NCBI GenBank assembly: GCA_021234155.1
Contig: JAJEKV010000045.1
Span: forward strand, 10,734,631 to 10,798,630
DNA: 64,000 nt
DNA from: Isoetes taiwanensis
Lineage: Eukaryota > Streptophyta > Lycopodiopsida > Isoetales > Isoetaceae
Direction: 5' to 3'
Under the pieces are notes generated by a model. That model ran no database searches. It saw nothing but the letters and a program-made list of their open reading frames with translations, and was not told where the DNA came from. This document shows positions 39,480-61,949 of the stretch, piece by piece (position 1 is the stretch's first letter; every line of letters begins with the position of its first letter). Both the position numbers and the translations under genes were made by a program.

Positions 39480-41205
39480 TTTATAATTGGAATTTCTTGA
39501 TGTATAATGTGTTATCAATTGTGTTTTGATAGCCTTTGTGAGACTTGCTGATATGTAGAGATTAGCTTATGTCAATTGTATGTTGTATGTTTTGGAAATG
39601 GATATTTGTTTAGCTCATCAATATCATATGAGTAATGCTTAGGGTGTACAAAACAGACTATTTAGACTAAAGAGCACAAAGTACTCTTGAAATATTAGAG
39701 CCAAGTGATTTGAGTAAATTATTTGTATTAAAGATTGCACTTTGCTCGAATTTCAATTAGAGCCATTGAAACAAAAATTAAATTAGCCATTTGAGCATGT
39801 ATTTGCATGGTAGACTGGATGTAAAACTTGATTACTAAAACAATCTATGAGTAAATCATTTGTATACATGGAGAATGAGAAGAGAAGAATGAATTGATTG
39901 AAGCAGCTCTGAGATAAGATGTAACCACAATCTCAATCCATGATTTTAATTTAATTAAGATCTCTCCTGGATTCTGTGCACAAATAGACTTCCTTGGATG
40001 GCAGAATACGAAGATCTAACTTGATTGAAACAATAAGGCAAAGAGAGAGAATGCAAATTGCTACTGAGTAATGTTAAGATCTATGAAAACTAGAACTAAT
40101 CTTGATGCATGTCGTAGTTATGTAAATATTTTGAAGCAATCCAAAACCGATGGAAAACGAAAAAAAAAATTATTCAAGCAGTAATGTCTATGTGACGAAA
40201 AATAACTTGTTTGTGACAGAATCTCCAACATAAGATACTTATGAAAGGAATCGAAAAAACTTTGAAGAATAGCCTATAGAAACTGATAACCAAATAAAAA
40301 AGAAGACTATTTAGGAGAGCCAACCTCCTCTTAAACATTCTTCATTTGCAATGTACTGCATGATGAGAATCACAAGCACATACTTTCAAAGGACAACTAG
40401 AGAAAACCCACATCAACAGTATTGCTGTGAATCTCCAACCGATAGGAGAATCTGTGGAGAAAACCAACACCAACAGTATTGCTATGAGTGTCGGAGCTTG
40501 AATTGGGGAAGGCAGGAAGATGGTGAGCAAGTTGAGGAGGCCAGCCCCCGATACATGGTGAAAGAAAGAAGGGAGGAAGGTTTAACCAATGCTACTATAC
40601 TGCTATGAGTGGAGAGCCCAATGAGAAGAAACATGAAAAGACCGAATATATATAGCTCGCCCTTTCATGAGAATCGTGATCTACGGTATAGATCGATCTG
40701 CATTGTCGACCATATTTTCTGAATTTAATTTTTATTTACTGCTTTTTTTGTTCTTGGCTCTCCTTTTTCTGGCGTTGCCTCATAAGAATCTTATCATGTT
40801 CTATAGAAACTATTCTTTGCATGTACATATAATGTTGGAGGGAGTTAGTCCATCTTTCTTTTTAATTATGTCTTGGCTTCTCTTCTCTATCCGATGTTTC
40901 GGCTTCTCTCGAACAAATCTTTTCCATGGGCACCGGAAGGAATTTCATGGCCAGCGCATCAAAATATGTCAAGCCTCTGGCCTTAACTAGCCGAGAAAAT
41001 ATAGTAGTGCTAGGAAAAGAAACTTTAGGGAATCCAAAGACTAACCTTTTTCTTATCGCTCTGGTTCTACTTTGAATAACCCCAACCGTGGTGTACATCT
41101 TTACGATCTAGACACAATCAGTTGACACATCATCATGCCACATAAGCATGCCCCTTGACATTTTGCCACGTGGGCATTATCACCAATAATTGGAGAGAAT
41201 AACGC
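39480..41205. other. No supported gene
   Basis: AT-rich. A 58-bp imperfect tandem repeat (…caacagtattgct…) lies at about 40398-40500. No frame is recognised. Confidence 0.4.
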
Positions 41206-41215
41206 AATTTTGAGA

Positions 41216-41451
41216 ATTTCAAGCACACCTAATTTGCTCAAGCACCAATACTTTTACCTACTTCTCGAGCCCAAGATACATGAGGTCACATGATACACAT
41301 ATCCATACAAATTATGCATTGTACTTGTACGTGTACATGATACTTGTACGCGCTCAATAATGGCACTACAATCTCTACCAATAATTCACATCAATAATTT
41401 GACTGTACTATAAAAGCAGCTCCATTCGGGGCTAGAGGTCATTCATCTCCC
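41216..41451 (+). promoter_or_regulatory. Promoter of small gene A
   Basis: A 235-bp upstream block is shared with the next gene copy (42101-42339): tttcaagcacacctaattt, cacatgatacacat, cttgtacgtgtacatga, then TATAAAA at 41409-41415 and agcagctccattcgggg. The ATG follows 37 bp after the TATA box, implying a very short leader. Confidence 0.65.
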
Positions 41452-41942
41452 ATGGCTTCCTTGCCTGATCGTCTGGAGCACATCCAAACCATTAAGTGCT
41501 GGGTAAAAGCATGAAAGGGTGTACGTACATTGTACTGAATTGATGTACAAATATGGATACTTTTCACGTACATTTTGGTTATTTTTTATTTGTATAAACA
41601 TACACTTTTTGATTTTATGTACTTTGCATATTCAGATATGTTTTGGCTATGCATGTACTTTTTGGGTACTTTGGGTGATTTGTGTAATATAGCCACATGT
41701 ACCAAAAGGGATACATTTCTAGACACCCTTTCATGCTTTTACTCTGCTATATGAGCTACAATGATCTGTGTGAATGCGTGAGAAAGGGTGTCAAACTTGA
41801 TCCATGGCTGCAATCCAAAGCAGATGGTCCTGCGAGCGGTTGCAGGAAGCTCACTCGTGTTGTGATCCACCTTTATTGGCTTCCTGATCAGGAGATCTAT
41901 GAGCTGAATGCCATCACCTCAGCAGGTGTTGATGATGAGTGA
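41452..41942 (+). CDS. Small gene A, unknown family, split by an inverted-repeat element
   Basis: Reading starts at ATG 41452 (MASLPDRLEHIQTIKC), is interrupted by a 240-bp insert at 41503-41742, and resumes with YMSYNDLCECVRKGVKLDPW through VIHLYWLPDQ to AGVDDE and TGA 41940-41942. Compared with copy B the original product would be about 80 residues. The insert supplies its own in-frame ATG at 41697, so a shorter hybrid reading exists. The insert begins with GT, but no good acceptor is placed to remove it cleanly. No family recognised; no signal peptide or membrane segment. Confidence 0.55.
41503..41742. mobile_element. MITE-like element with 20-bp terminal inverted repeats
   Basis: Both ends carry GTAAAAGCATGAAAGGGTGT, one inverted (41503-41522 and 41723-41742), a perfect match. 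It is absent from the paralogous copy at 42.4 kb. The 8 bp on either side (agtgctgg and tctgctat) share TGCT only, so any target duplication is decayed or short; superfamily not assigned. Confidence 0.85.
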
Positions 41943-42100
41943 ATCAGTGATGACTTGTGTACCTGTTAAGGATATAATGATATAAGCACTTCCGGAATAT
42001 GTAAGGATGTATAAGCATAATGAATATTATTTGATGTATCGAACCTGAGCAATTTGTAACGGTGTGCTCTTCGACCTCCACTTTTTCTACAAGCAGTCCC

Positions 42101-42339
42101 TAATTTCAAGCACACCTAATTTACTCAAGCACAAATACTTTTACCTTACTAAAATCCAAGATACAAAGCATGATTTCACATGATACACATCCATATAAAA
42201 TATGCATTATACTTGTACGTGTACATGACTGTTGTATACGTTCAATAATAGCGCTACAGTCTACCCCAATAATTCACATCAATAATTTTACTTCACTATA
42301 AAAGCAGCTCCATTCGGGGCTAGAGTTCATTCATCTCCC
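42101..42339 (+). promoter_or_regulatory. Promoter of small gene B
   Basis: Homologous to 41216-41451, with TATAAAA at 42297-42303 and the same ataaaagcagctccattcgg block, followed by ATG 42340. Confidence 0.65.
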
Positions 42340-42582
42340 ATGGATTATTCGCCTTCTTCTGTTCACCACATCGAGGCGATCAAGTGCTCAATGAGCTATA
42401 ATAATCTTGTCGGTTGCCAAGATAGGGGTATTCTTCTTGATCCCTACCTGTAATCCAAAGCTAATGGTGCTGAGATTCGTTGCCCTGGGTTGATTCGTGT
42501 TATGATCCACCTCATTTGGCTTCCCGAGCGCAATAGCGATGAAATATCAGGGATCACTCCAGCAGGTGTTGATGAAGACTGA
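42340..42582 (+). pseudogene. Small gene B, tandem paralogue with one in-frame stop
   Basis: Eighty codons from ATG 42340 (MDYSPSSVHHIEAIKCSMSY) to TGA 42580-42582, collinear with gene A (ITPAGVDED matching ITSAGVDDE at the end). TAA at 42451-42453 interrupts it where gene A has CAA. Without that stop the frame is clean, so the loss is recent or translation ends early at 37 residues. No family recognised. Confidence 0.55.
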
Positions 42583-42870
42583 ATCACCTGTTCGGCAATG
42601 TATATTGTAGTGATGTTCTGGCATATAAGATATAGTAATGTATAAGAGCACTTGTATTAATCTATACAAAGTAGAGAGCAATAAAAGTTAACTACTTTAA
42701 TGTATCTTGAAGACTCAAGTTTCATCTCCATCCTCTGAGGCCTCTTTAGCCAATAGTTCCTGCACCTGGATTCCTACACTAGCGGGATCACAACCAATAA
42801 TGGCTTCGGTTCAACTAACCAAGCATAGTCTATCGTTTTGAGAGGCTGATAACGTGGTCTGTCATTAGGA

Positions 42871-43153
42871 TTTGGTTTGGGTGCATATTCACATAGGGGG
42901 TTACTCCGGGCAACGAGAGCTGTCGGATGGGCATATTTGCCCTTTATTCTAAGATCTGGACCGTACATAGCGGTCCTCGTTTGTGGGGTATGCATATACA
43001 AGTTTTTGTATACTATATATTAAGGTTTGCAAAATACTATAAGGTTTGAGAGAATGTACTTAATGGTGTTAATTTTGTACATGTATTGTGAATATATTTT
43101 AAGGGCTCTCGCTGCCCTACGTAACCCCCGTGTGAATATGCACCCAAACCAAA
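42871..43153. mobile_element. 283-bp inverted-repeat element (MITE-like)
   Basis: The left arm 42871-42920 (tttggtttgggtgcatattc…) matches the reverse complement of 43105-43153 over about 50 bp with few mismatches. No open frame inside. A target duplication is not evident at the immediate flanks. Confidence 0.75.
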
Positions 43154-43384
43154 GGGGGTTTAAGGGGGATTTTAATTTAAATGTGTTAAATGCAATGGTT
43201 TATGTTAATAATGTTAATGGTAGTTGTGTGTTGATTGTTATATTAAAAAAAAATTTGGGCCCTTCGGGCCCTAACTAAAGCAAACATAGGTAAACTTTAT
43301 GGGCCTAAATATTAATTACTAAAAAGCACAATAACACGAGGACAAACAAATTATTTCCATGGCAAATAGATTCAATTGATGATT

Positions 43385-43535
43385 GCATGTATGCATTCTT
43401 ATATATATGGCATTCAAGTATTACCCATTTTTCTCAAAACAGTCAATAAGCTGCTTAATAATTTCCTAACACTCTATATATACATGGCATTCAGATATTC
43501 CCCATTCTTCTCAAAATAGTCAATAAGCCGCATTG
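43385..43535. repeat. ~80-bp imperfect tandem duplication
   Basis: tatatatggcattcaagtat… at about 43401 recurs as tatatacatggcattcagat… at about 43478; both run into tcaaaa.agtcaataagc. Confidence 0.8.
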
Positions 43536-43971
43536 TGTTACTGTGTAATTCTGAGATTTGAAGAGATGTACATGGATGCGCATTGATAAATAGGTCAGAT
43601 GCAACCTATTCCCATACCGGGTATAACGTGCCATTATAGATACAACATAGTTTCCACATTGTGGATGCCAATTCGGATGTCAACTTGATGTGCATCAAGC
43701 AGCCAATTCGGATCTCTACTTGATAGATCCTAAGCAAATTCGACAAAATCCATAGAAGCCAATACGTTATGCTAGATATTGATGTTTGCAGGCAACGTAA
43801 AAGGCCTGCATACAAAAATGCCAAAAGATGTACACAATTAGAAGAACAAGAACCAGATAAGGATGCAAAGATAATATCACAAAATACAAAGAGCCATCAT
43901 AGCATACAGTGCCGAAGCTGCATTGCCATACCTGTGGCAACTGATACCAACTAATATAAATCCCAAGCTTG

Positions 43972-44340
43972 GTAAGGAAGCATGAAAGATAGAAAGCTGC
44001 TAGAATTAAAGAAATTTAAGGGAGGTAAAACAACAAAATATCTATAATCACAAATGCTATTTATGATATTTTCATATTTGATAGAACAAAAATGTAAATA
44101 AGCTACAGAATACTATGATGCGGTTGCTGCTTAAAATAAGAAGAGTAGACCTCCTATAATGTAAGGAAGCATGAGAGATAGGAAGGTGCTAGAATTAAGA
44201 AATTTAAGAGAGGTAGAACAACAAAGTATCTGCAATCACAAATGCTATCCATGATATTTTCATATTTGATAGAACAAATCTGTAAACAATCCTGCTACAG
44301 AATAACATGATGTGGTTGCTGCCAAAAATAAGAAGAGAGA
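43972..44340. repeat. 189-bp imperfect tandem duplication
   Basis: Units start gtaaggaagcatga (43972 and 44161) and run to ataagaagag with scattered changes. Confidence 0.85.
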
Positions 44341-45199
44341 TTCTTTGTATTTCATGGCTTTTTTAGAACAAGGGATGCACGAAAACAAGAATATGGAAAT
44401 TGTGCTCACCTGACACCAGAGAACCCTAAACCAAAGGGGATTCGCAGGCCTAAATCGCTCAGTTGTGCAGATGACAGAAATTGCAAAGGCTACATCCGAT
44501 GCTACAAGTCTGGTCGCAAGATGTCGAAGCAGTCGTTGCCTTGAAGAATCGGTTGCTGTGGTGGCCACGCAGCGGACAAACCTCTCGGACCTGATAAAAA
44601 AAACGCAGATAGAATTCTAGTGGCTTCCAAGAACCAACGACAATAAATCTTGCCTGCTTCCAAGCTTTAGATGCTAGGGTTTTGCCGGAAACTGGAGCGA
44701 GAAAATTCCATCTTGATCTAAGTAGGCTGTGGAAGATCATATGGAATTGAAATCACTTATAGACTCTGTAAACCTGGCAACAGAACCGTTGGCTAAAGAT
44801 CCTGCAGAACTGGTGAGAGACTGAAGCGCACAACCCAAATAAAACCTATGTGAGCTGAACTGTCGGGACTGTATTTGCACAAAAGAAATCGTGATAACTG
44901 GTGACAGACTTAAGCATACATGTATCAGCTGGAAGAAATCAAAGCTCAAATAAAACCGAACTAGCATCCGGCTTCACAAAGCGACCACTGTCGCAAAGCT
45001 CCTTGACCTTCCCGGGTCCTGGTTTAGTAAAGAAATTGGGGCACGAAACCATAGAACCCTAAAATGGGTTTGCTCGAGGCCTGCATGCATGAGCTTTGGA
45101 AATTCATAGGTGACCATTGGAAAGATGGCACCAAAATCAAGATCAGTGTATGCGCACTCTAGATGTACACATTAGTACATCCGGCGACATACGAACATC
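44341..45199. other. No supported gene
   Basis: Minus-strand frames at 44459-44740 and 44737-44967 are open but match nothing I know. A 7-bp inverted repeat (gatgtac…gtacatc) lies at 45170-45189. Confidence 0.35.
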
Positions 45200-45263
45200 A
45201 AATCATAAAAAACCATAGAAAAAAACGTACAAAATCATAAAAAACCATAGAAAAAAACGTACA
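45200..45263. repeat. 32-bp tandem duplication downstream of the transposase-like gene
   Basis: Two units (aaatcataaaaaaccatag…cgtac) with period 32 at 45200 and 45232, just past the stop of the DUF7869 gene. Confidence 0.85.
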
Positions 45264-45285
45264 AAAATACAAAAGAAACCCCCTG

Positions 45286-48246
45286 TTATTTTGCTACATA
45301 TTTATGCCAGCAGTCCCGATACTGTTGAGCGTATGCGGTACCTTTCCTAACCACAGGCTCCCACCAAGACACAAAAACTTCATTATAATGAGGGGCAGTG
45401 GGGTCTTGTATAGGGTCCTCCTCTGCATAGGCTACCCATGTAGGACATGCATCTGCCGGTCTTACAAGCAGAAACATACCTTTCTGTACATCTTGGTATG
45501 GGTCAAATATCTCCACTGCATTCTTGGGTTTATCCTTAGCAGGTCCGACAAAGGCAACTGGAGCGTCATATCGATCGACCTGAATAGATTCAGGCTCTTC
45601 AAGCACAACTTGCCTTGTTCGAGGCCAGAAGTTCTGAATTTCTGCATTGCCCGGGGGTACTTCACCTAGCACACGCATCACTTCGCACCAGTAGTCCATG
45701 ACCTCGTTCATGTAGGTATTGGACCACGAGTTCACACCAGCCCTGGAGATATTAGCCCAATGCATCATGTACTTCGCAATGGACGACCTCAATGCTCCTA
45801 TGTCCTTGAGGCTTGAATATGGCTTGACAGTCTTGGGCGAGCCAATCGGTATCTTTGGCGAACCACTGTCATCTGCTTTCCACATCCGAATACCCTTTTC
45901 TGGCAACCATTCTTTATGACCAGCTCTCATCTTGTAATACATTACTGGCCACCCATCATTCATGCAGAACTTAAACAATAAGGGCTCTAAGTGACCAACC
46001 AAACAGTCCTTCTTATCAGGAATGTATCCTTTTACTAAACCCTTCCAATCGGGAACCTCGGTAACAAGGCATGGTGTCGGTGCCTTTGTGCTACATTCTC
46101 GGAAGAGTTGCATTAGTTCTGGAATAGTTAGAGCATCCGACCTGCGCATTAATGTCGAATAGTTACCGAAGAGCGCATCAATGTCATCATGAGTGTGGCC
46201 TACCATCATGAAGCCAAGCTGTATTTGATCAAAAACACCCAACCACACAAGATAGGATAGATAAGAGAAGAGATATCTGTTCTTGTTCTGCCCCGCGCAG
46301 TTGTTTAGCTGCAAGTAGAGCCGCCTAGGTAACCTCTTAAGGTGCGCTGGTTGCTTAGGAGGTGCTACAAAGTCTTCCCCTGTGCAATTGCTTTTTTTTG
46401 TCCTCAACCCCGCACTGTTGAGGAGTGCGGTTCCCCATATGTCCTCAGGCCGAGCTTAATGGCCCTAATTGTCTTCGGAAGTGTCCTCCAGTGTTTTGAT
46501 AACATGATTCAAGGAACCAACATGAAAATTTGAATCATCCTTCCAAAGGTCGAGTGAGAAATGTCCTAAGGCACCTGTGCCATGGCCATGCATCAGTGCA
46601 CCAGTCACGCTAACTTTCAAGCGTTCACCTCTCCATACCGATTTGGCTAATTTCTCCAGTCTTGGAATCATAGTCTTGTTTTGGTCCATCTTATCATGTA
46701 TGATAGTGAGCGTCTGATCCGGTGATCGATGGGACAAAGCTCTCCATGACCAGTACAAGCTCCTACAAGAGATCTGGGCTGTCATGTGTTCCTTCCTTTC
46801 CATCTGCAATTCTCTTCTCTCCCGTGGATCTCTGGTCTTAGCCATTTTCTCTTTTATTACAATACAGGTATTGCACTTGGAGAAAGCTGTCCTCTTTGCT
46901 ATTGCAACCTCTGCGTGATTTTGCTTCCACCCACGTGAGAATGAAGAATGAGAGACGTGCTTGCCCGTCATCTCCATCACATTGGCGTCCACCTCTTGAA
47001 GAATGTCTTTTTTGGGTTAGACAGAGGGGAGCCTCTTCACATTCTCTCTCACCCCTTCAGTAGTGATTTTCGATCTGTGGGGCATCATCTCAGCATTCTC
47101 ATCTATGTACATAGAAAGCAGGGCCTTTCCTACTAGAGTGTGAGGCCTCGACTTTTTCGAGCCCATGTTACCATGTTCAGCAACTCTGTGACCAGCAAGG
47201 AAAAGTCTTCGCCACTTATGGACATTGGAATACCATAGGCTCTATGCCATGCTTTCAAGCATACCTGCTTGTTATTTAGCATGAGCTTCTGGACCAGTCC
47301 GTTCTCTGAACAGACGTCTAACGTGTTGAAAACAAATGTGGTCCTGTCTTAAGCACTCAAGTTCCAATAGAAACTACGCATACACCTAATCTCGGCTGTT
47401 GAGAAGTTTGCGCAGCATCTTCGCATGCAACAAAGCGAAGATTTAAAGTCTAAAATGGAAGCTGCCGTGATCTTTCTCTCAGCTTTAGTGGCCATAGCAG
47501 GTGAACGTGGAGTCCGGTTCACCATTCTGTACATCCTCTTGGGTGCCTTTTCAGCCTCAATTTGCATGCATAGGGTTCTGCTTCAATGACTGTCTGTTTC
47601 ACAGTCTTTATGAGTGTCAACACAGCAACATTGTCTACTAACACCAAAGCAATCGGCCACCTGACCAAGTCGTGCAACTGTGGCATTTCAGAACAAGCTT
47701 GGCATCGCATAGTCGGCCTATCTGGCATAGGGAATGTCTTCATTATGGTTGCCGCCAAGTAGTCTTCTCCCAATCTCATGTCACCAACTGCCTGATTAGG
47801 GTCGATGAAGATGATCACGCCAAGGGCATACGGCATGTTGCAGCAGTCATGCAAGAGTGTGCAACTTTTCTCTACTAGCTCATCCCTTGAAATGCCGTCT
47901 TCGCGATACTTTTTCCCGGAGGGGCTTTCCTGTGCTTGCAACCCCTGCCAATCAATTTTTTTTTTATCTATGCTGGCGGTGTGGATATGTCAGGTTCTTG
48001 TGTAAGGGTAGCTATCCATCGTGCTGGCCACAAAATAAAACTCCCTAAAGAATCCGCGAGCGTTGTAAATTCCGGTTCAGGATATGGCAAACCAATGCTT
48101 CCGTCGACAATGACTTCCATAGACACTACTACGCTATCTTTCGGCAAGGGCAAGTTGTGGTGCTTGTCGAAGCTACGTACTTTTCCCTCGCCCACTTTGA
48201 CTCCATCAAATAGTATGGACTTCGAGCCAGCCATGCCTGCAAGCAC
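45286..48246 (-). pseudogene. DUF8039/DUF7869 transposase-like gene with in-frame stops
   Basis: On the minus strand the order is as follows. A DUF8039-like block at 47968-48246 (EFTTLADSLGSFILWPARW). A linker at 47519-47941. A Cys-rich segment (CCMRRCCANFS, about 47430-47460). A helical part with KWRRLFLAGHRVAEHG (about 47200). Then the DUF7869 domain, an RNase-H-like transposase-related fold: HGTGALGHFSLDLW (46550-46590), LYLQLNNCAGQNKNRYLF, IQLGFMMVGHTHDDIDALF (46160-46320). The usual Asp in LQLDN is Asn here. In-frame stops are at 47968-47970, 47349-47351, 47017-47019, 46465-46467 and 46456-46458, each one C-to-T change from a Gln codon; frames also shift near 47960, 47560 and 47210. It is divergent from the ParB-methyltransferase gene. 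Confidence 0.75.
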
Positions 48247-48360
48247 AAAGGTCGTTAGTGCTTAGAGAAAATGTCACCGCGATGTCACCGAGCACTTTCT
48301 GATCGTCTAAAGAATAAGCCACAGACAAACCTCCTTCAAGAAAGGATCAGTGGTTAGCAG

Positions 48361-48376
48361 GATCACGGTCGCGATT
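48361..48376. repeat. Palindrome copy 1
   Basis: GATCACGGTCGCGATT. Confidence 0.7.
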
Positions 48377-48524
48377 TGGTTGAGCAACCCGTGGGTTGTG
48401 TGGTCGTCCTGAAGAAGACAGACATGTTAAGACCAGAATCAATAAGACAAGTGTCTATTTGCTTGTACCGGCTAGTTACATCCAGAGCATTTATAGGTAC
48501 CTTAGTCTAGATTATGCCGCGCAA

Positions 48525-48540
48525 GATCGCCTTCGCGATC
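48525..48540. repeat. Palindrome copy 2
   Basis: GATCGCCTTCGCGATC; 6-bp arms and a 4-bp centre. Confidence 0.8.
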
Positions 48541-48678
48541 CGGACGAGTACTAGCTGTGCCGTAAGGATGACCTGCATCAGAGGAAGATGAATCAATAAG
48601 ACAAGTGTCTATTTGCGTGTACCGGCTAGTTACATCTAGAGCATTTATAGGTACCTTAGTCTAGAATATGTTGCGCAA

Positions 48679-48694
48679 GATCGCCTTCGTGATC
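48679..48694. repeat. Palindrome copy 3
   Basis: GATCGCCTTCGTGATC, one transition from copy 2. Confidence 0.75.
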
Positions 48695-49307
48695 CTGACG
48701 ACTAATAGATGTGCCGTAAGGATGACCTGCATCAGAGGAAGATGAATCACATCAACGTCTAAAAACAGGAACATCTCACGAATTGTTCAGAGAGGCAATC
48801 TTAATTCCTAAATTAAAACGGGATTTGATTTAACAGACACAAAGAAGGCGTGCATGCAGTAGATTTAAATGAAAACACAATTTAATGAATGTGCTTGCCT
48901 GTCTTTGGCCTTTAATGAATTCAAGAACGTAAAATATGCTTAGTTGCCTTCAAGTTCAGACGAGCGCCTTTGGAATCCACCAGAGCGCCATCAATTTCAT
49001 TCGAGCACCTGTATGTTTCCACTCCGGCGCCTCGAGAGACTCCTTCCCAAGCTTTGCTACAATAAAAGTCTTCGAGGGTCTTTCCGCTCCATGAATTGCA
49101 TTTGAATTTCAAAACAATGTCCTTCTGGCGGGGCTTTTTGATGCCGTATTGTCCCTGTCCCTATCCAATTAAAACTGACGTGCCGTGGGTGATTTGTTGT
49201 CCTTTCCGGGGGGGCCTGCAGTCCTCCTGACAAAACTCTCACGAGTCACTTTCCGGTACGTTTTCGACGTGGGCGTGGATATTTGGAGGAATGGAGAATA
49301 TGCCGCT

Positions 49308-49440
49308 CGTCATAATGACGCCGCCTGTCATAATGACGCCGCCTGTCATAAATGCTTGTCATAATGACGCCGCCCCTCATAATTATGCCGCCGGTCATAA
49401 TTACGCATCCCGTCATAAATGCCCCGGCCATAATGGCGGT
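49308..49440. repeat. 18-bp minisatellite with palindromic core
   Basis: Six or more units related to GTCATAATGACGCCGCCT; the core GTCAT-A-ATGAC is itself an inverted repeat. Confidence 0.85.
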
Positions 49441-49565
49441 TCCTATAAAAAACGAAACCCTTATGTTCTGATCACATCGCGATTCTGCCGACTTGCGCCT
49501 TCGCAAAAATTCGAGCGCCTTCAACCTTTTCGAGCGCCATCATGTCCCGTGCCGCAGCCCTCAGA

Positions 49566-49597
49566 TAAAAAGACATAGCTGTTACTATGTCTTTTTA
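49566..49597. repeat. Hairpin with 13-bp perfect arms
   Basis: taaaaagacatag, a 6-base loop ctgtta, then ctatgtcttttta. The T-run after the stem would also fit a Pol III or fold-back terminator, but no RNA gene is recognised. Confidence 0.8.
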
Positions 49598-49618
49598 GGA
49601 TAGTTAGATGGTTGACAG

Positions 49619-49634
49619 GATCGCGACCGCGACA
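49619..49634. repeat. Palindrome copy 4
   Basis: GATCGCGACCGCGACA. Confidence 0.65.
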
Positions 49635-49680
49635 GTTGCGACCACGACCTTTCCTCTTTTTTTGGAAAGTAGTGCTTACA

Positions 49681-49700
49681 ACAATCGCGGCCGCGATTGT
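49681..49700. repeat. Palindrome copy 5, 20-bp perfect
   Basis: ACAATCGCGGCCGCGATTGT; perfect over 20 bp. It is followed at 49708-49728 by a second inverted repeat, cattacat-gtaca-atgtaatg. Confidence 0.85.
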
Positions 49701-49744
49701 GGTGACCATTACATGTACAATGTAATGCCCTCATTGTTCGAAAG

Positions 49745-49760
49745 GAACGCGGCCGCGTTT
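49745..49760. repeat. Palindrome copy 6
   Basis: GAACGCGGCCGCGTTT; perfect over the central 14 bp. Confidence 0.75.
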
Positions 49761-49826
49761 CTTACCAGCACAATGGTGAGATACCGCCGTTAGCGAGTTA
49801 GTTCTTACCTTGCTACTGCTCAACCG

Positions 49827-49842
49827 GATCGCGGCCGCGATC
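49827..49842. repeat. Palindrome copy 7
   Basis: GATCGCGGCCGCGATC; perfect. Confidence 0.85.
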
Positions 49843-51064
49843 TTCATGAGCAACTTCTTCCACTAACTAGTGTATCTAACCTGTGTTCAATTACTATTGC
49901 AGCGCAAGATCTTTTCCGCGGCCCCAATGTAGAACCGGCTAGAATCGTAGCACCTGATAGAAGCCGGAAGTGGTGTGTGGAAATTTCGCAAGCCAAACCA
50001 CATGTGGCTGGAGACCACCGAAAGGATTTGTGTTTGTTCTTCAGGACGGGCAAGGGTCCAGAAGATTACGAGCAACTAGGAATAGTTATTGCTATGTGGG
50101 AAGGCACCAAAAATAATGTACAGGATGCAATAATTTGCAGCGTGGAAGATACTCATCAGCTTCAGTTTGTTGAGTACGTGTTGCGGTGGCAGAATTATGA
50201 TCCATCGATTATGATTGCGAGTAATGTCAATAAACCGGCAAGCAGCAAGGGGATGCCCACCAGTGCAAAGGGATTTGGGTGGATACTGCCATCATATGAT
50301 TCGTTGAGCTTGTCTGGTATAATGTGTAACAAGGATATACTTGTTGGATTTAGTGTGTACAGAAAGGGTCTTTCTGCTAATAAGAAACCTCCTTCTGCTG
50401 CTTTGAAGGCTACTAAGGACAACAAACTGCCTTCAAGAATGGACACCAACTGGCTCAGAGCTGTTGCCAAGAAGAGATCCGTGGCCCCTCTGCAGGCTAT
50501 AGGCGAACCGTCCACTCCAAAGGATACTGTACTCCCCATGGAGGTTATCCCCTCAGCAAATATTGGTTGTTCTACCGTAGTCGACCCTTCAGCTCCCGTC
50601 ATGCTTATGCCACCTCCCGCCAGAGACTCTGAGGCAGTAGAAGAACAGCCAGCAAAGAAGATAAGGACATTCAAGATCAAGCTTCCAAAGCTGAACACGG
50701 ATGACAGTGCGCGGCCTTCGACATGTTCTACTCCTTCCTCGTCCACCATACCAACAGCTACTAGCCACATGTTGACCTGGCCAACTACTGCGCGAATGCC
50801 AGAAAAATTAAAGTTTAATCCAGATGAAGAAAAGAAACTCGCTCAGGAGACAGCCTCTAAACTCGAGGAGTTCAAAAAGTATTACCCAATGGGTGTAAAC
50901 TGGTTCCAGAAGGTCAGTATTTTCGATTGCGAGCCAGCTCCCGCAAATATGACACATAGAGTTCGCTCGAATGACCATGTCCAGACCCTGATAAAGAGCT
51001 TCAAAAAATACCCAATGGAGGTTCTTACCCCTGCCGATGTCGTTCTATTCGATCCAGTAACAAG

Positions 51065-51130
51065 GTCAGTTACATCATATTCATTTCTCTCTTGTATTAT
51101 TGGTTTTATATCAATATGCTGTCCATGCAG
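51065..51130 (+). other. Probable intron in the ParB-methyltransferase gene
   Basis: Donor aacaag/gtcagt and acceptor tccatgcag/gaaatt; 66 bp, AT-rich. Removing it joins FDPVTR directly to KLVTWSRPEEL in frame. The presence of an intron argues against bacterial contamination. Confidence 0.7.
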
Positions 51131-51477
51131 GAAATTAGTCACTTGGTCCCGCCCCGAAGAACTGTTAAACAAGAAATTCTTTATTATTTCTGGTAATCAC
51201 AGCATCTTTGCTGCACAGTTTTTATGCACTTACATGGTAATGTCGAACAAAGGCTGGAATTTGCGAAAGCATATGCAAAAAGAAGAAGTCGTGTGTTAAA
51301 TGGGAACCTCTCCAACAAGGAATACATTCAGATTTCTATACAGTGCAACGATGTAATCGCAGAAACAGTATACAAAGAACCACTCATTGAAAAGCTCCAA
51401 ATGTCCTCCACAAGGGCCAACAGGAACTGCAGTGACATCCGCCTGGAAGGTGTGTTTTTCGTTGTTTTGTTCAGGAA

Positions 51478-51493
51478 AATCGACGTCGCGATC
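51478..51493. repeat. Palindrome copy 8, inside the gene
   Basis: AATCGACGTCGCGATC, within a stretch (51450-51514) that has intron-like ends (gtgtgt…tgtacag). Confidence 0.65.
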
Positions 51494-53612
51494 CTAACCA
51501 GCATTTCTGTACAGGATTTTGCTACCACAACCTTGAAGGTTAAGGAACTTAAGGATGAGAAGCAGTTCCTATTTATGCAAGAAGAATCATGGTCTAAGCT
51601 CGTAGATGTTGTCAACAAATGGGCAAGTCGAAAGCTAACTGATGATCAAGGGGAATTACCAGAGAAACCTTCAAAGGAGTTTTTCAACAAGACATTCCTG
51701 AGAAACCTACGAGGAATGAACAATGCTGAGGTAAGCCAATTGATGGACGAAATCTTACAGGGCAAAGTTTTCTTGAAAGTGCAGCAAGGATATGCAGGAC
51801 GTTTTGATTGCCATCAGAGGGCGCTAGACATCAGAACACTTTCACTCATGCGTCGTGAAGTGTTATCATATGCCAATTCTGTTTCAGATAAGCAATACAA
51901 GAATTTTGAAAAGTTGGCTTCATGTTTTCCAGAGCTGTCTGAACAACGACTCCTGGATATAGCAGACACAGATTTCGAATATATTAATGCGAACTATAAT
52001 AAAGAAGCAGTTCAAGGTAATCTTCCAACAGTTTTTTTGGAAGCTATTATTGCTATAATGAGGCCAGAAGAAGCCAAGAAAATGAAAGAGAAGAAAAATA
52101 CCGTGCAACACGTCACAAAAACTGGCATCCTTGTGTCTGCACTGGTGTCAGAAAATGCCACATTGAGTTTCGTTGACATGCGTAGTTTTACGACGCTGTG
52201 GGATGTCAAAAAATATACAGATTTTTTTAGCAGAGTTGCAGGCATGACATAAGCAAAAGTGTACCACATAGTCATGTTCCTTAGATCAGCGCATTTGCCA
52301 AACTGTTTGTACAGTCAGAGCCAGATACAAGTTAGCTCCCATGTTTCCCTTGGGGCTTATGAAGAACAAGGATGGGAGAGCAAAAAAATATCAAAGAATT
52401 CCAGTATTATGTCAGCCACATGACAATAAACAGAAGTGATGTTCATGTGCTGCCTGTTAAGCTCAACTTGGAGCTACGACTGACTCAAGTGACTAAAGCA
52501 CCGAAAAGCACTCCTCTTCCAAAATATCCGATTACTGGTGACGAGGAGGTAGACATGAAAACAAAAAGAAAATATTTGGAGTTATTTACAGGTAAACCCA
52601 AGTTCTCATGGGCAGCTATGGAAGGCGACTTCATCCTTAAGAGCCAAGCAAAAACTTCTTATATTTATTACATAGTGAAGGAGCTGGTTCCATTAGAAGG
52701 TTGCGTTCTGGATTTCTTCTCAGGCGGAACTGCGTCAAGGGTAGCTTTGATGCAAGGAAAACGGAGTATTGCTTTTGAGTATGACGACAAGGTTTGCCGG
52801 TTCCTTACATCTTTCTTCGAGATTCTTGAGAAAATGGCAATGCCTGACACAGAAGAGCAAGGTGATGGGCTGTAGATGATAGGCCTATCAGTTCCGACAT
52901 GCCGGATATTAATATAACACAGGGAACGGATCTCAGCCAGATGGATCAGCTGCTAGACAGCCTGGATCAGAAAAGTTTCGAAGAGAGGCTGAAGGAAACC
53001 CGGGAAGTGCTAGAGAAGACTGAGAAGGAATCAGCAAAACTAGATCCTACGTTCAAAAAGATTGAAGCACTAAACAAGAACATGGACTCCATACTGCCAA
53101 TAATAACCAAGCGCCTGGAGGAGCCGCTTCCTAATTTTGAGTACATGGGCATGTCTGAAGGCGGCTCCGGAAGTGAGAGAACCTCTGCCGACCATTCACC
53201 AAAAAGACAGAAGTTGGTTCCCTCTACTGAATTTTCTTTGGCATTACAGGACGAATTGTTGGATAGTGATAAAAGCAATGCTTCAGATGTGTCAGAGCGT
53301 GTTAAAAACGCAGCTGCCGCAATGGATGTTGACATGCCAGAAACAACTGGATATACAGAAATGGACCTGTCACAGACGCTTGCTATTGGAAAGGAGCATA
53401 TTGCAAGAATAGCTGCTCAACTTGGTGTTGATCCAGAGACTGTAAAAGAAACTCAGTGGTAAAGCCTTCGCATTTGTGCTGGGCATTGTTTACAAATTTT
53501 GTGTTAATACATTGTGTTTATATTTTCACCTCTTTTTGGGTACACTATGTGTTATCCTTTTTTGTTTAATTGTTTTGTCAACATTGAATTGCATGAACAA
53601 AGTAGTTTGGAA

Positions 53613-53628
53613 GATCGCGGCGGCGATT
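53613..53628. repeat. Palindrome copy 9, downstream of the gene
   Basis: GATCGCGGCGGCGATT. Confidence 0.7.
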
Positions 53629-53719
53629 CTGTAGACCAGATATACATCTTCCAGACAGCACCTTGACCTAGTAGCACACAATGTGCTATTTGTATTCTGC
53701 ATTCACTTGTTGTCGCAAA

Positions 53720-53735
53720 AATCGCAATGGCGATC
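53720..53735. repeat. Palindrome copy 10, downstream of the gene
   Basis: AATCGCAATGGCGATC, followed by cttacgacc, a flank shared in form with several other copies. Confidence 0.7.
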
Positions 53736-55349
53736 CTTACGACCACTAGTGATGCTGCTCAAACCCCCACACTTACTGTTATGACAACTATGGGCTACAC
53801 GCCTGCATTCAAATTTTGGCGACTGTTATTTTTTCAAACTGAACTAACAATTATTAACGCTTTATTTTGGTTGAGAGGAATCATTTCTTACCATCTCCGG
53901 GGTGACCACGACCTATTTCGTTGTCAAACGAGAAAATGAAATTTCTCTAATTAATGAAACCATGCTTACATGGTAACCGCTGCCTTGCACTGCATCAGAC
54001 ATCCTATCATGTCATCATAAACTGCTAACTGGGCATCTTCTATACCAAGTTATATATCATCATTCTCCATAAATTCTTCCTTGAGGTATAGCTTGCCACT
54101 GTTCTTCTACATCTATAAAATTATTCCCAATTCCATTCAAAATAACAAAACGGCTCCTCACACATGAAGTTCTTCTTTTTTCTTGAAAAACCATATCCCT
54201 AGTTTGCACGTTCGACCGTCGACTCGTGTTCCTCGGCACACTTCATGCATGATGTGACCTTTTTGCGTATGATGATCTGGTTCCCTGCAGTCTGATCTCG
54301 TCTCATTAGGTTGGAGAGTCCATCCAGGCAATTGCTCTCCTCGCGTTCCTGGACATGGAAAGATGATTTAGCAATCCTCACCACTATAGCTTTACTTCTA
54401 TTCCTCTCTTAACATTCCTTTTAATTCTAACTCTCCACAGTCAAGCTTGTTGATATGAGGGAGATTAAGTTTTCCTGTTCTAGGATAAAAAAAATTCTGG
54501 TGAATTTGGTTGGGTGGGTCGAGCTTTTCCTTTAATTGGATTTTCTTGTGTTTCTTTGTGATTTGTGAAGGTGAAATCTAAAGAGACAGTATCCCGTAAG
54601 GCTGAGTAATTACTCTGATAAAAGACACATGAACGAAGAAGTCGAAGTCGTCTGCCATCGCACATTATCAATACTAGAACATAACGTGAAAAAATAAACC
54701 TTCTAAAATGGAGGTAACAATGAAACAAAGGGGAGGAGGGTAGATTTCAAGAATGAGATAAAGGTACTGTTGAGAGAGATGAGAAAGTGCCGATGAGAAG
54801 TTGATGAAGAACCTTGCAATAAGTAGCGATCTCCCAAGCAAACCAAAGGCCCAAAAATACATGCGATACATGCATACTTACTTGCATGCTCATCCATCCT
54901 AAAATCCCGATCCGATGGCTCAGATCGATGGGATTGACTCGGGCTTTACTGATTTGGCGTCAACTCCACTACCACAAAGAGGGCATATATTGCTAATTCA
55001 TCAATAGAAGAGATGGCAATGGGTGCATTTTGGCAATAAAATGTAGATTCTAACCTAAGTTGTTTGCACTTTGGAACCTTTCATCCTTTTATGTTATTTG
55101 CTACATGACATCTAATGACAAACATGATGATCAAGATATTGTTTTTCTGGCTCATCCATTGCCACATATCTTACATAATACAACATTATAGTAATATGTT
55201 ACGGATATATGTTTCAAATGAAAAAGCTATGGAATAACCTTTGTGTTTTGCACTATTTTATAAACTAGCTTTCAATTTTCAAAAATGAGACACATACCCT
55301 TGGTCAATATACCATGTATTTTTATGTTTTGGATAATGACAAAGTGCTC
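53736..55349. other. No supported gene; right edge of the transposon-like region
   Basis: The element's end must lie here or slightly beyond, but no terminal inverted repeat was found by eye. Minus frames at 54199-54384 and 54480-54897 are unrecognised. Confidence 0.35.
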
Positions 55350-61123: not shown

Positions 61124-61949
61124 AATATGTAGCAAAATAACAGGGGGTTCCAGGGGGATTTGATATGGATGTAAAAATAACAATTCCCGAAACCATACAC
61201 TATATATCCCTAAAACAAATGAATAGGTTGTTATTAAAAAAAACATAGATTCAAGATAAAAAAATAATCACATTAGCTCACTGGGTACATTGTTTAAAGT
61301 AGTCTTATTAGGAAATTGAGTTATTTTGGTAGAGGTTCGAGGGCCCCGTATTTCATATTCTCATATCTTAGGCAAAGCCGTATAGGGGTTCAATATTCCC
61401 TCAAAACCTTAGACGAAATCATATTTCATATTTCAAAATCATAAGCGCCTCCAATCATAAATGACTATAAGTGAAACGAGAGGTGCCCAAAGGTCTCAAC
61501 ATACGATTTGGGTCGTAGGATCGACGAATCCGACGACTGTGGTAGTCCAGGGTGCACCTCGTTTAGAATATGTAGCAAAATAACAGGGGGTTCCAGGGGG
61601 ATTTGATATGGATGTAAAAATAACAATTCCCGAAACTATAGACTATATATCCCTAAAAGAATTGAATAGGTTGTTATTAAAAAAAACATAGACTCGAGAT
61701 AAAAAATAATTATGTTAGCTCACTGGGTACATTGGTTAAAGTAGATTTATTAAGACATTAAGTTATTTTGGTAGAGGTTCGAACCCCCGTATTTCATATT
61801 CTCATATCTAGGCAAAGTCGTATAGGGGTTCGATATTCCCTCAAAACCTTAGACGAAATCGTATTTCATATTTCAAAATCATAGGTGCCTCCAATCATAA
61901 ATGACTATAAGCGAAACGAGAGGTGCCCAGAGGCCCCAGCATACGATCC
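61124..61949 (+). repeat. Tandem SINE-like repeat, period 443 bp
   Basis: Two units (61124-61566 and 61567-61949) both open with aatatgtagcaaaataacag. Each contains a tRNA-like Pol III promoter: A-box ttagctcactgggtac and, about 60 bp later, B-box gaggttcga(acc)cccg. The unit's first 26 bases are identical to the complement of 45277-45302, the last codons of the DUF7869 gene. Confidence 0.75.

Follow-up and report, generated by a model that had tools for sequence, protein, structure and literature searches.

Why should a large DNA transposon carry, next to its transposase gene, a second gene whose product appears to combine a ParB-like segment with a methyltransferase-like domain, and do the two genes form a unit at all? 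This question is raised by a 64,000-nucleotide stretch of the genome of the quillwort Isoetes taiwanensis (contig JAJEKV010000045.1, positions 10,734,631 to 10,798,630 of the forward strand; the whole stretch is called the window below), in which a minus-strand transposase-like gene and a plus-strand gene, the partner gene, diverge from one another. We find that the pair is a single mobile unit, a large cut-and-paste DNA transposon, and that it holds an array of 36-bp palindromes that resemble the binding sites of a conserved protein. Both genes are in pieces in the window, as an original prediction made from its sequence had stated, and other copies were compared across an assembly of 1,658,258,908 bases in 1110 contigs.

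The unit is defined by its ends. Several copies cease to match at one and the same base, window position 53967, and are flanked by unlike sequence afterwards; 8 of the 9 other right ends examined are as in the window, again with differing flanks, and similar right ends occur in two diverged complete copies on contigs C1067 and C1105, which were chosen from a protein search in which 84 of 4960 candidates were scored. Left ends begin with AAGCATGATTTCATTAATTGGA, which is the right end AAGCATGGTTTCATTAATTAGA in inverted form, and the complete copies have the terminal inverted repeats (AAGCATGATTTCATTAATT... and its partner end) expected of a cut-and-paste element. Both ends were recovered in eight of ten copies chosen as near complete, and all eight show AAGCATG... 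inverted repeats together with a 4-bp target site duplication (TSD), namely TTTT, TTTT, GATT, TATA, TAAA, TAAG, AATT and, for the window copy, ACAT; in the stretches fetched, no left end was recognizable at the C919 and C1049 loci, and at C919 no right end either. Duplication of 4 bp at the target site is a feature of Sola1 elements, and this, together with an Ectocarpus parallel described below, makes membership of Sola1 likely. Assignment to KDZ/Zisupton was rejected as the main reading because the duplication has 4 bp and not the 8 bp described for Zisupton (PMC12730594). The original prediction had rightly proposed a large transposon-like element with both genes, for which shared boundaries, inverted repeats and TSDs now speak, and had set its limits at 45277 and 53735, which are corrected here to 41144 and 53967. 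The flank matches another repeat family up to 45300 because a nested insert (42876 to 45300) splits off the left part of the element, so that at 45300 it is this insert that ends and not the transposon. Including two nested inserts, the window copy is 12.8 kb long; the complete C1067 and C1105 copies measure 10,246 and 10,285 bp.

The pairing recurs elsewhere in the genome. DNA searches with either gene, in each of which 40 candidates were scored, returned at least 43, at least 42 and at least 42 matches, the copies of the transposase-like gene region being 92–97% identical to the window. Twenty ten-kilobase stretches were drawn from 39 places outside the window, 15 by rank (rank 14, C1047, was omitted) and five (C907:8188552, C1062, C919:17991084, C1032:11753216 and C20) selected for their presence in both gene searches. 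According to tblastn, all five selected copies and 10 of the 15 ranked ones have a divergent partner gene next to the transposase gene, with noncoding sequence in between. Both genes are also kept in the complete C1067 copy (transposase pieces 74–84% and methyltransferase part 69% identical) and in the complete C1105 copy (58–78% and 52%, respectively). In favor of accidental neighbors, 5 of the 20 transposase copies (L011, L015, L026, L027 and L028) lack the partner gene within the fetched 10 kb by tblastn; four of these five still carry palindromic sites (5, 7, 1, 3 and 0, respectively), and the shared ends, the TSDs and the pairing in diverged subfamilies leave chance adjacency so improbable that it was rejected. 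The outcomes named beforehand as refuting the pairing, genes never adjacent at other loci or alignments without shared boundaries, did not occur.

The second common feature is a 36-bp dyad, TGSTY-N6-ATCGC-N4-GCGAT-N6-RASCA, that lies mostly in noncoding DNA. The palindrome family announced by the original prediction is real, with nine sites of at most one mismatch to ATCGCNNNNGCGAT in window positions 45301–53967 against a mean of 0.2 in 30 first-order Markov shuffles, but the sites then assigned to the spacer between the genes belong partly to the predicted first intron of the partner gene and partly to the transposase gene, in its 5' noncoding part (Table 1). One further site, a weak one at 42527, was found in the rest of the window and belongs to the left part of the element. 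Across 21 copies, 141 sites match ATCGC-N4-GCGAT with at most one mismatch, in 132 unique contexts. The outer arms TGSTY and RASCA begin eleven bases outside the inner arms; all ten of their positions were matched in 52 of 133 contexts and in none of 1050 random places, and at least eight positions in 109 of the 133 contexts as compared with 13 of the 1050 places, the contexts including the left part of the window and the scored positions having been defined on the same sites. In one genome-wide site count, ATCGCGRYCGCGAT occurred exactly 1943 times, and the reversed pattern used as control 7 times. Five stretches chosen by the pattern, being the first pattern-bearing contigs outside the copies already known, all fell in relatives of the element, some pieces at 34–43% identity, and four of the five contained the partner gene (39–76% identity in the first piece reported).

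Both the placement of the dyad and its constancy are informative. The open C1067 copy has 10 of its 11 sites outside the predicted exons of the partner gene, with four sites in the first intron and a single one in the last; all sites lie outside the stretch matching the transposase of copy L021, although one (4874) is inside an open frame running to 4926. A site ahead of the acceptor of the last intron is present in all eight diverged copies compared, which include close relatives and amount to about three or four lineages; it is exact in six, with one mismatch in L043 and two in L041, and has been kept although synonymous change between subfamilies is saturated. The spacers of two subfamilies align over no more than about 100 bases and some short pieces, yet arrays occur in both. 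The constancy of the dyad between very diverged copies, inside their own introns and 5' parts, suggests that the element encodes a conserved, dimeric protein that binds DNA. The possibility that the palindromes act as RNA hairpins, for example in splicing, was considered with regard to the several sites in predicted introns. The inner arms, however, are fixed in sequence, the N4 center is variable, the N6 gaps are 41% complementary (above the 34% obtained with re-dealt partners) and no continuous long hairpin is kept, so that this explanation is very improbable and was rejected as the main one; we infer instead that the conserved feature is a DNA sequence that is contacted along a single face of the helix.

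The protein that reads these sites would most plausibly be the product of the partner gene, which is the best candidate, with the transposase as its rival. Transposase binding, for transposition or for assembly of the ends, would fit the finding that all five sampled site-bearing stretches belong to these elements, one with the transposase only, and a weak helix-turn-helix (HTH) match in the transposase (E 0.16). On the other hand, the sites are concentrated inside the element and not at its ends; none lies left of the transposase gene in any of 15 copies (several of these stretches stop short of the left end) or in the two complete copies, and the left part of the window copy has the one weak site mentioned above, which makes a role in transposition improbable. 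Several observations nevertheless weigh against the partner protein as binder. In the fifth pattern-chosen stretch a transposase (34% identity) was found with no partner gene within 3 kb, and either the transposase or a host factor could bind the sites. In a young subfamily of 12 copies (L017 was excluded from the alignment for its length), the arms were not significantly better conserved than other spacer columns (0.949 vs 0.908, p 0.23), although CpGs within the sites of the same subfamily were kept more often than others (0.916 for 25 positions vs 0.820 for 58, p 0.012).

What kind of protein does the partner gene encode? In the open C1067 copy (C1067:982600-994600), the predicted exons join unaltered into an open frame of 1153 codons, to which a ten-codon first exon, MSRSSALREG, is added. 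The C-terminal half is conserved, the other sequences in an alignment of 11 copies being 52–91% identical to the first, and carries the resemblance to class-beta amino-methyltransferases. The window open reading frame (ORF) matches Pfam N6_N4_Mtase at E 0.0034, below the cut-off of that family; tblastn to Gordonia phage methylases gave a best E of 7e-5; hhalign gave a probability of 71 and E 3.7e-5 over 49 columns, with motif I alone aligned, and BLASTP of one pair showed the resemblance as well. The S-adenosylmethionine (SAM)-binding motif I comes after motif X, toward the C-terminal side of the domain, as in class-beta enzymes, although the Pfam match stays below its cut-off. In the last exon of the window copy, motif I reads DFFSGGTASR (at about 52710–52740) and a D-M-R-S-F-like stretch stands at the expected place of motif IV; DFFS..TASR is kept across the 11-copy alignment. 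The original prediction of a class-beta methyltransferase motif in the divergent plus-strand gene is thus upheld as a resemblance around motifs X and I.

The catalytic motif IV of the class, [DNS]PP[YFW], was not found at its expected place. Where DPPY should be, each of the 11 aligned copies reads D-[MIF]-R-[SGA]-[FM], and the eight diverged stretches (L040–L047) lack [DNS][PI]P[YFWH] in every forward frame. The same scan of L009–L025 gave matches elsewhere (transposase strand, spacer, flanks and one in the C-terminal tail of L021) and none at the motif IV place; the D-x-R stretch is in frame in 6 of these 17 loci (L012, L014, L020, L021, L024 and L025), whereas other matches to the loose D-x-R pattern (L010, L016) are unrelated frames, many of the remaining loci being broken or too short. 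Loss of the usual catalytic motif makes methyltransferase activity doubtful. Some points count against these readings and must be set beside them: intact copies score no better in Pfam (L020 0.15; L012 none at E<=10; a 622-residue piece of C1067 none), and for this reason it is the recurrence of the match around motif I that carries the class-beta assignment; the motif IV place was set by position and by eye against the phage alignment, the hhalign match having covered motif I alone; and a conserved GCPPQGP at the end of the third exon contains PP and was not taken as motif IV because it lies far upstream.

It is of note that the domain is under purifying selection. Among copies chosen as open or near complete, pairs were formed from six open copies of the eight aligned sequences. 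For L012/L047 the ratio of nonsynonymous to synonymous change (dN/dS) came to about 0.14 across the exon, and for the methyltransferase part to 0.08; the remaining 14 pairs showed saturated synonymous change (proportion of synonymous differences, pS, 0.77–0.88 over the exon), with proportions of nonsynonymous differences (pN) of 0.18–0.31, and 0.12–0.26 in the methyltransferase part. Because it is conserved by selection, the domain works at something. One such function would be active self-marking, in which the protein, bound to the palindromes, would methylate adenine or the N4 of cytosine in the element that encodes it. The conserved DFFS..TASR motif I, the class-beta similarity found by Pfam, tblastn and hhalign, and the N4C/N6A activity predicted in print for a similar protein, as described in PMC12477816, would all suit it; a DPPY-type motif, however, was found neither where expected in any of the 11 aligned copies nor anywhere in the 8 diverged stretches, which renders self-marking unlikely. 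The earlier idea that the element modifies its own DNA is weakened to the same extent, although the domain is conserved by selection.

The ParB-like segment is plausible from a layout recognized by eye (..HVQTLIRSFKK..PTEVLTP....YYIISGNHSIFAAQ..) and from the published description of a similar protein. Against it stand the absence of any Pfam match to the segment at E<=10 and of any PF02195 match in the genome at E<=1, introns being ignored, so that the ParB domain of the original prediction has no profile match behind it. Searches of solved structures gave no credited match; one returned 59 rows, mostly cytochrome c peroxidases over profile positions 46–108, which were judged spurious since they lie outside the methyltransferase motifs. 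PHROGs and NCBIfam gave no meaningful match, eight phage records yielded no seed sequence for PF02195, and no relatives were found in viral contigs or prokaryote genomes by back-translated patterns.

Our preferred reading, to which we give somewhat less than even weight, is that of a Sola1-like transposon in which the partner protein, by binding the palindromes, regulates or un-silences its own element. An element of about 10.2 kb would be cut and inserted by the DUF7869 transposase through its AAGCATG... inverted repeats, leaving the 4-bp duplication. The product of the divergent partner gene, about 1160 residues long, would combine a ParB-like segment with a class-beta methyltransferase-like domain devoid of the usual catalytic motif, and it would bind, as a dimer or a higher assembly, the 36-bp palindromes in the introns, the 5' noncoding part and the downstream region. 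Binding would keep up or tune expression of the element, for example by countering silencing by the host, as VANC does for VANDAL elements, and the methyltransferase-like domain, presumably catalytically dead but with its motif I kept, might, speculatively, serve as a SAM sensor or scaffold. Regulation could also run the opposite way, with the protein repressing its own element and so limiting both the transposase and its own expression; such autoregulation would agree with the presence of sites in the partner gene's predicted introns and in the transposase gene's 5' noncoding part, though not with the sites downstream of the partner gene, and we consider it about as unlikely as self-marking. 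A narrower form of the preferred reading is more doubtful than the general one. It envisages sequence-specific self-recognition, in which the parS-like 36-bp palindrome, retained over a very long time in introns of the partner gene and present about two thousand times in the genome, would be read by a ParB-like protein with a dead methyltransferase domain, and the element family would thereby be shielded from silencing. If it were true, it would represent a second, independently evolved VANC-like anti-silencing system, built of bacterial parts, in a vascular plant.

Several known systems are relevant to this reading. In the brown alga Ectocarpus, the 21.5-kb Sola1-1_Ec32 (Genome Biol 2025, PMC12477816) encodes on the opposite strand a 1104-residue ParB-like/amino-methyltransferase protein, for which the authors suggest binding and epigenetic modification of the element's own sequence. 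Compared by description only, this element and that of the lycophyte, of about 10.2 kb, are alike in being large DNA transposons with an accessory gene for the same domain pair on the strand opposite the transposase; a palindrome array and loss of the catalytic motif, as found in the quillwort, are unmentioned in the available part of the Ectocarpus paper. The same paper mentions giant EnSpm elements in red algae, and an algal system it cites has, by its account and compared by description only, the same domain pair, in transposons whose types may differ. The kind of element is therefore already in print, and the idea of self-modification was anticipated there. Sola1 in a land plant is possible in view of the Physcomitrella Sola1 listed in PMC9033089. 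The TET/JBP-carrying DNA transposons of fungi (PMC12730594), as far as described, are similar in pairing a DNA transposon with a gene of DNA-modification type, whereas their enzyme is a dioxygenase and their transposases are of other superfamilies. The closest functional parallel would be VANC of the Arabidopsis VANDAL elements. VANC21 is described as binding motifs that lie in introns and noncoding upstream regions of the element encoding it (PMC5735166), and VANC as removing silencing marks from its element (PMC5735166, PMC10398659). Both systems, in outline, have a candidate element-encoded protein and an array of short motifs in the element's own introns and upstream noncoding parts, often in tandem repeats in the case of VANC, which a 154-bp tandem duplication in the window (48436–48743, one palindrome per half; two sites at equal spacing in L009) recalls; the VANC motif, on the other hand, has 9 bases in one orientation, in repeats that diverge fast, whereas the 36-bp dyad is constant between very diverged relatives. 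We know of no relation of VANC to ParB or methyltransferases.

In the literature searched, mostly without subscription papers, no paper was found on a land-plant element of this kind, its palindromes or the loss of the catalytic motif. New as far as these searches show are the 36-bp dyad, the absence of the canonical DPPY motif from all copies checked in a domain under purifying selection, and the lycophyte host. Transposons carrying ParB/methyltransferase genes are thereby extended from algae to a lycophyte genome, together with a concrete candidate DNA target and a methyltransferase-like domain that selection has kept in the absence of its usual catalytic motif. Should the protein bind the palindrome, it would become directly testable how such proteins serve transposons (marking, hiding or switching).

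The transposase itself agrees with the prediction of a minus-strand DUF7869 gene. PF25273 (DUF7869), its sole Pfam match above cut-off, matches the window ORF at E 7.6e-37, with a second piece at 6.9e-5, just short of the cut-off, and matches copy L021, in which the frame is uninterrupted over 947 codons, at E 1.4e-43. The DUF8039 also proposed was not recovered, neither in the 947-residue frame of L021 (E<=10) nor in window 47968–48246 (0.001), an ORF that may be a 5' extension of the transposase gene. A DNCAGQNKN stretch of the window transposase has N where L021 has D, and the window protein, its breaks aside, is probably dead, if that residue is catalytic. DUF7869 is unmentioned in the literature searched, from which subscription papers were mostly absent.

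Table 1. Features of the transposon copy in the window (positions are those of the window)
Feature	Positions	Strand	Remarks
Whole transposon copy	41144..53967		alignment to other copies: left 41184-42875, right 45301-53967
Left TSD copy, ACAT	41140..41143		directly precedes AAGCATG; ACAT again at 53968-53971
Left terminal inverted repeat, altered past AAGCATG	41144..41210	+	AAGCATG, followed by a local replacement and by AATTGGAGAGAATAACG, which other left ends share
Nested small insert, inverted-repeat ends, MITE-like, foreign to the system	41501..41744		edges +-5 bp; gap in alignment to the L027 left part
Nested 2.4-kb insert of another repeat family, foreign to the system	42876..45300		edges +-5 bp; element resumes 42875/45301
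DUF7869 transposase-like gene, disrupted	45301..47941	-	Pfam PF25273; copies at 92-97% identity
Three palindromes, 5' noncoding part of transposase gene (48362, 48526, 48680)	48362..48693		
First short coding exon, predicted	49542..49566	+	by analogy with MSRSSALREG of the open copy; donor site unrecognizable here
First intron, predicted, four palindromes (49620, 49684, 49746 with two mismatches, 49828)	49567..49902	+	
Second coding exon, predicted: N-terminal domain and first half of ParB-like segment	49903..51064	+	
Third coding exon, predicted: ParB-like GNHS stretch	51131..51449	+	frame broken in window
Last intron, predicted, palindrome 51479 ahead of acceptor	51450..51514	+	
Last coding exon, predicted: helical region, class-beta methyltransferase-like domain, C-terminal tail	51515..53462	+	
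Two palindromes downstream of partner gene (53614, 53721)	53614..53734		
Right terminal inverted repeat, terminating ...AATTAATGAAACCATGCTT	53920..53967	-	comparison with other right ends
Right TSD copy, ACAT	53968..53971		right after element end

Some smaller observations concern the copies and their inserts. In G000, L061, L063 and L064 the same palindrome adjoins relatives of the partner gene that are far more diverged (39–61% identity in the first pieces), from which it follows that several old lineages of the element coexist in the genome. Upstream of the first predicted exon of the partner gene, a short array of units of about 18 bases (GTCATAATGACGCCGCC-like) occupies window 49302–49440 and is possibly linked to a promoter. 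The left noncoding part shows a tandem duplication in L026 (463–1606) and L027 (449–1616, both oriented), stretches of about 480 bases repeating at an offset of about 630. Two copies without the partner gene hold open frames (L027 6850–8528 and L028 8209–9999, oriented) that we take, from their translations, to be LINE-like and Copia-like, respectively, and that are apparently later insertions. The small nested insert at 41501–41744 has long inverted-repeat ends (GGGTAAAAGCATGAAAGGGTGT...). The right part of the larger one is repeated in the genome, with at least 52 matches, the window's own included (40 scored candidates), and with matches reaching 45300; inverted copies of 26 bases from its right edge lie at window 61124–61149 and 61567–61592.

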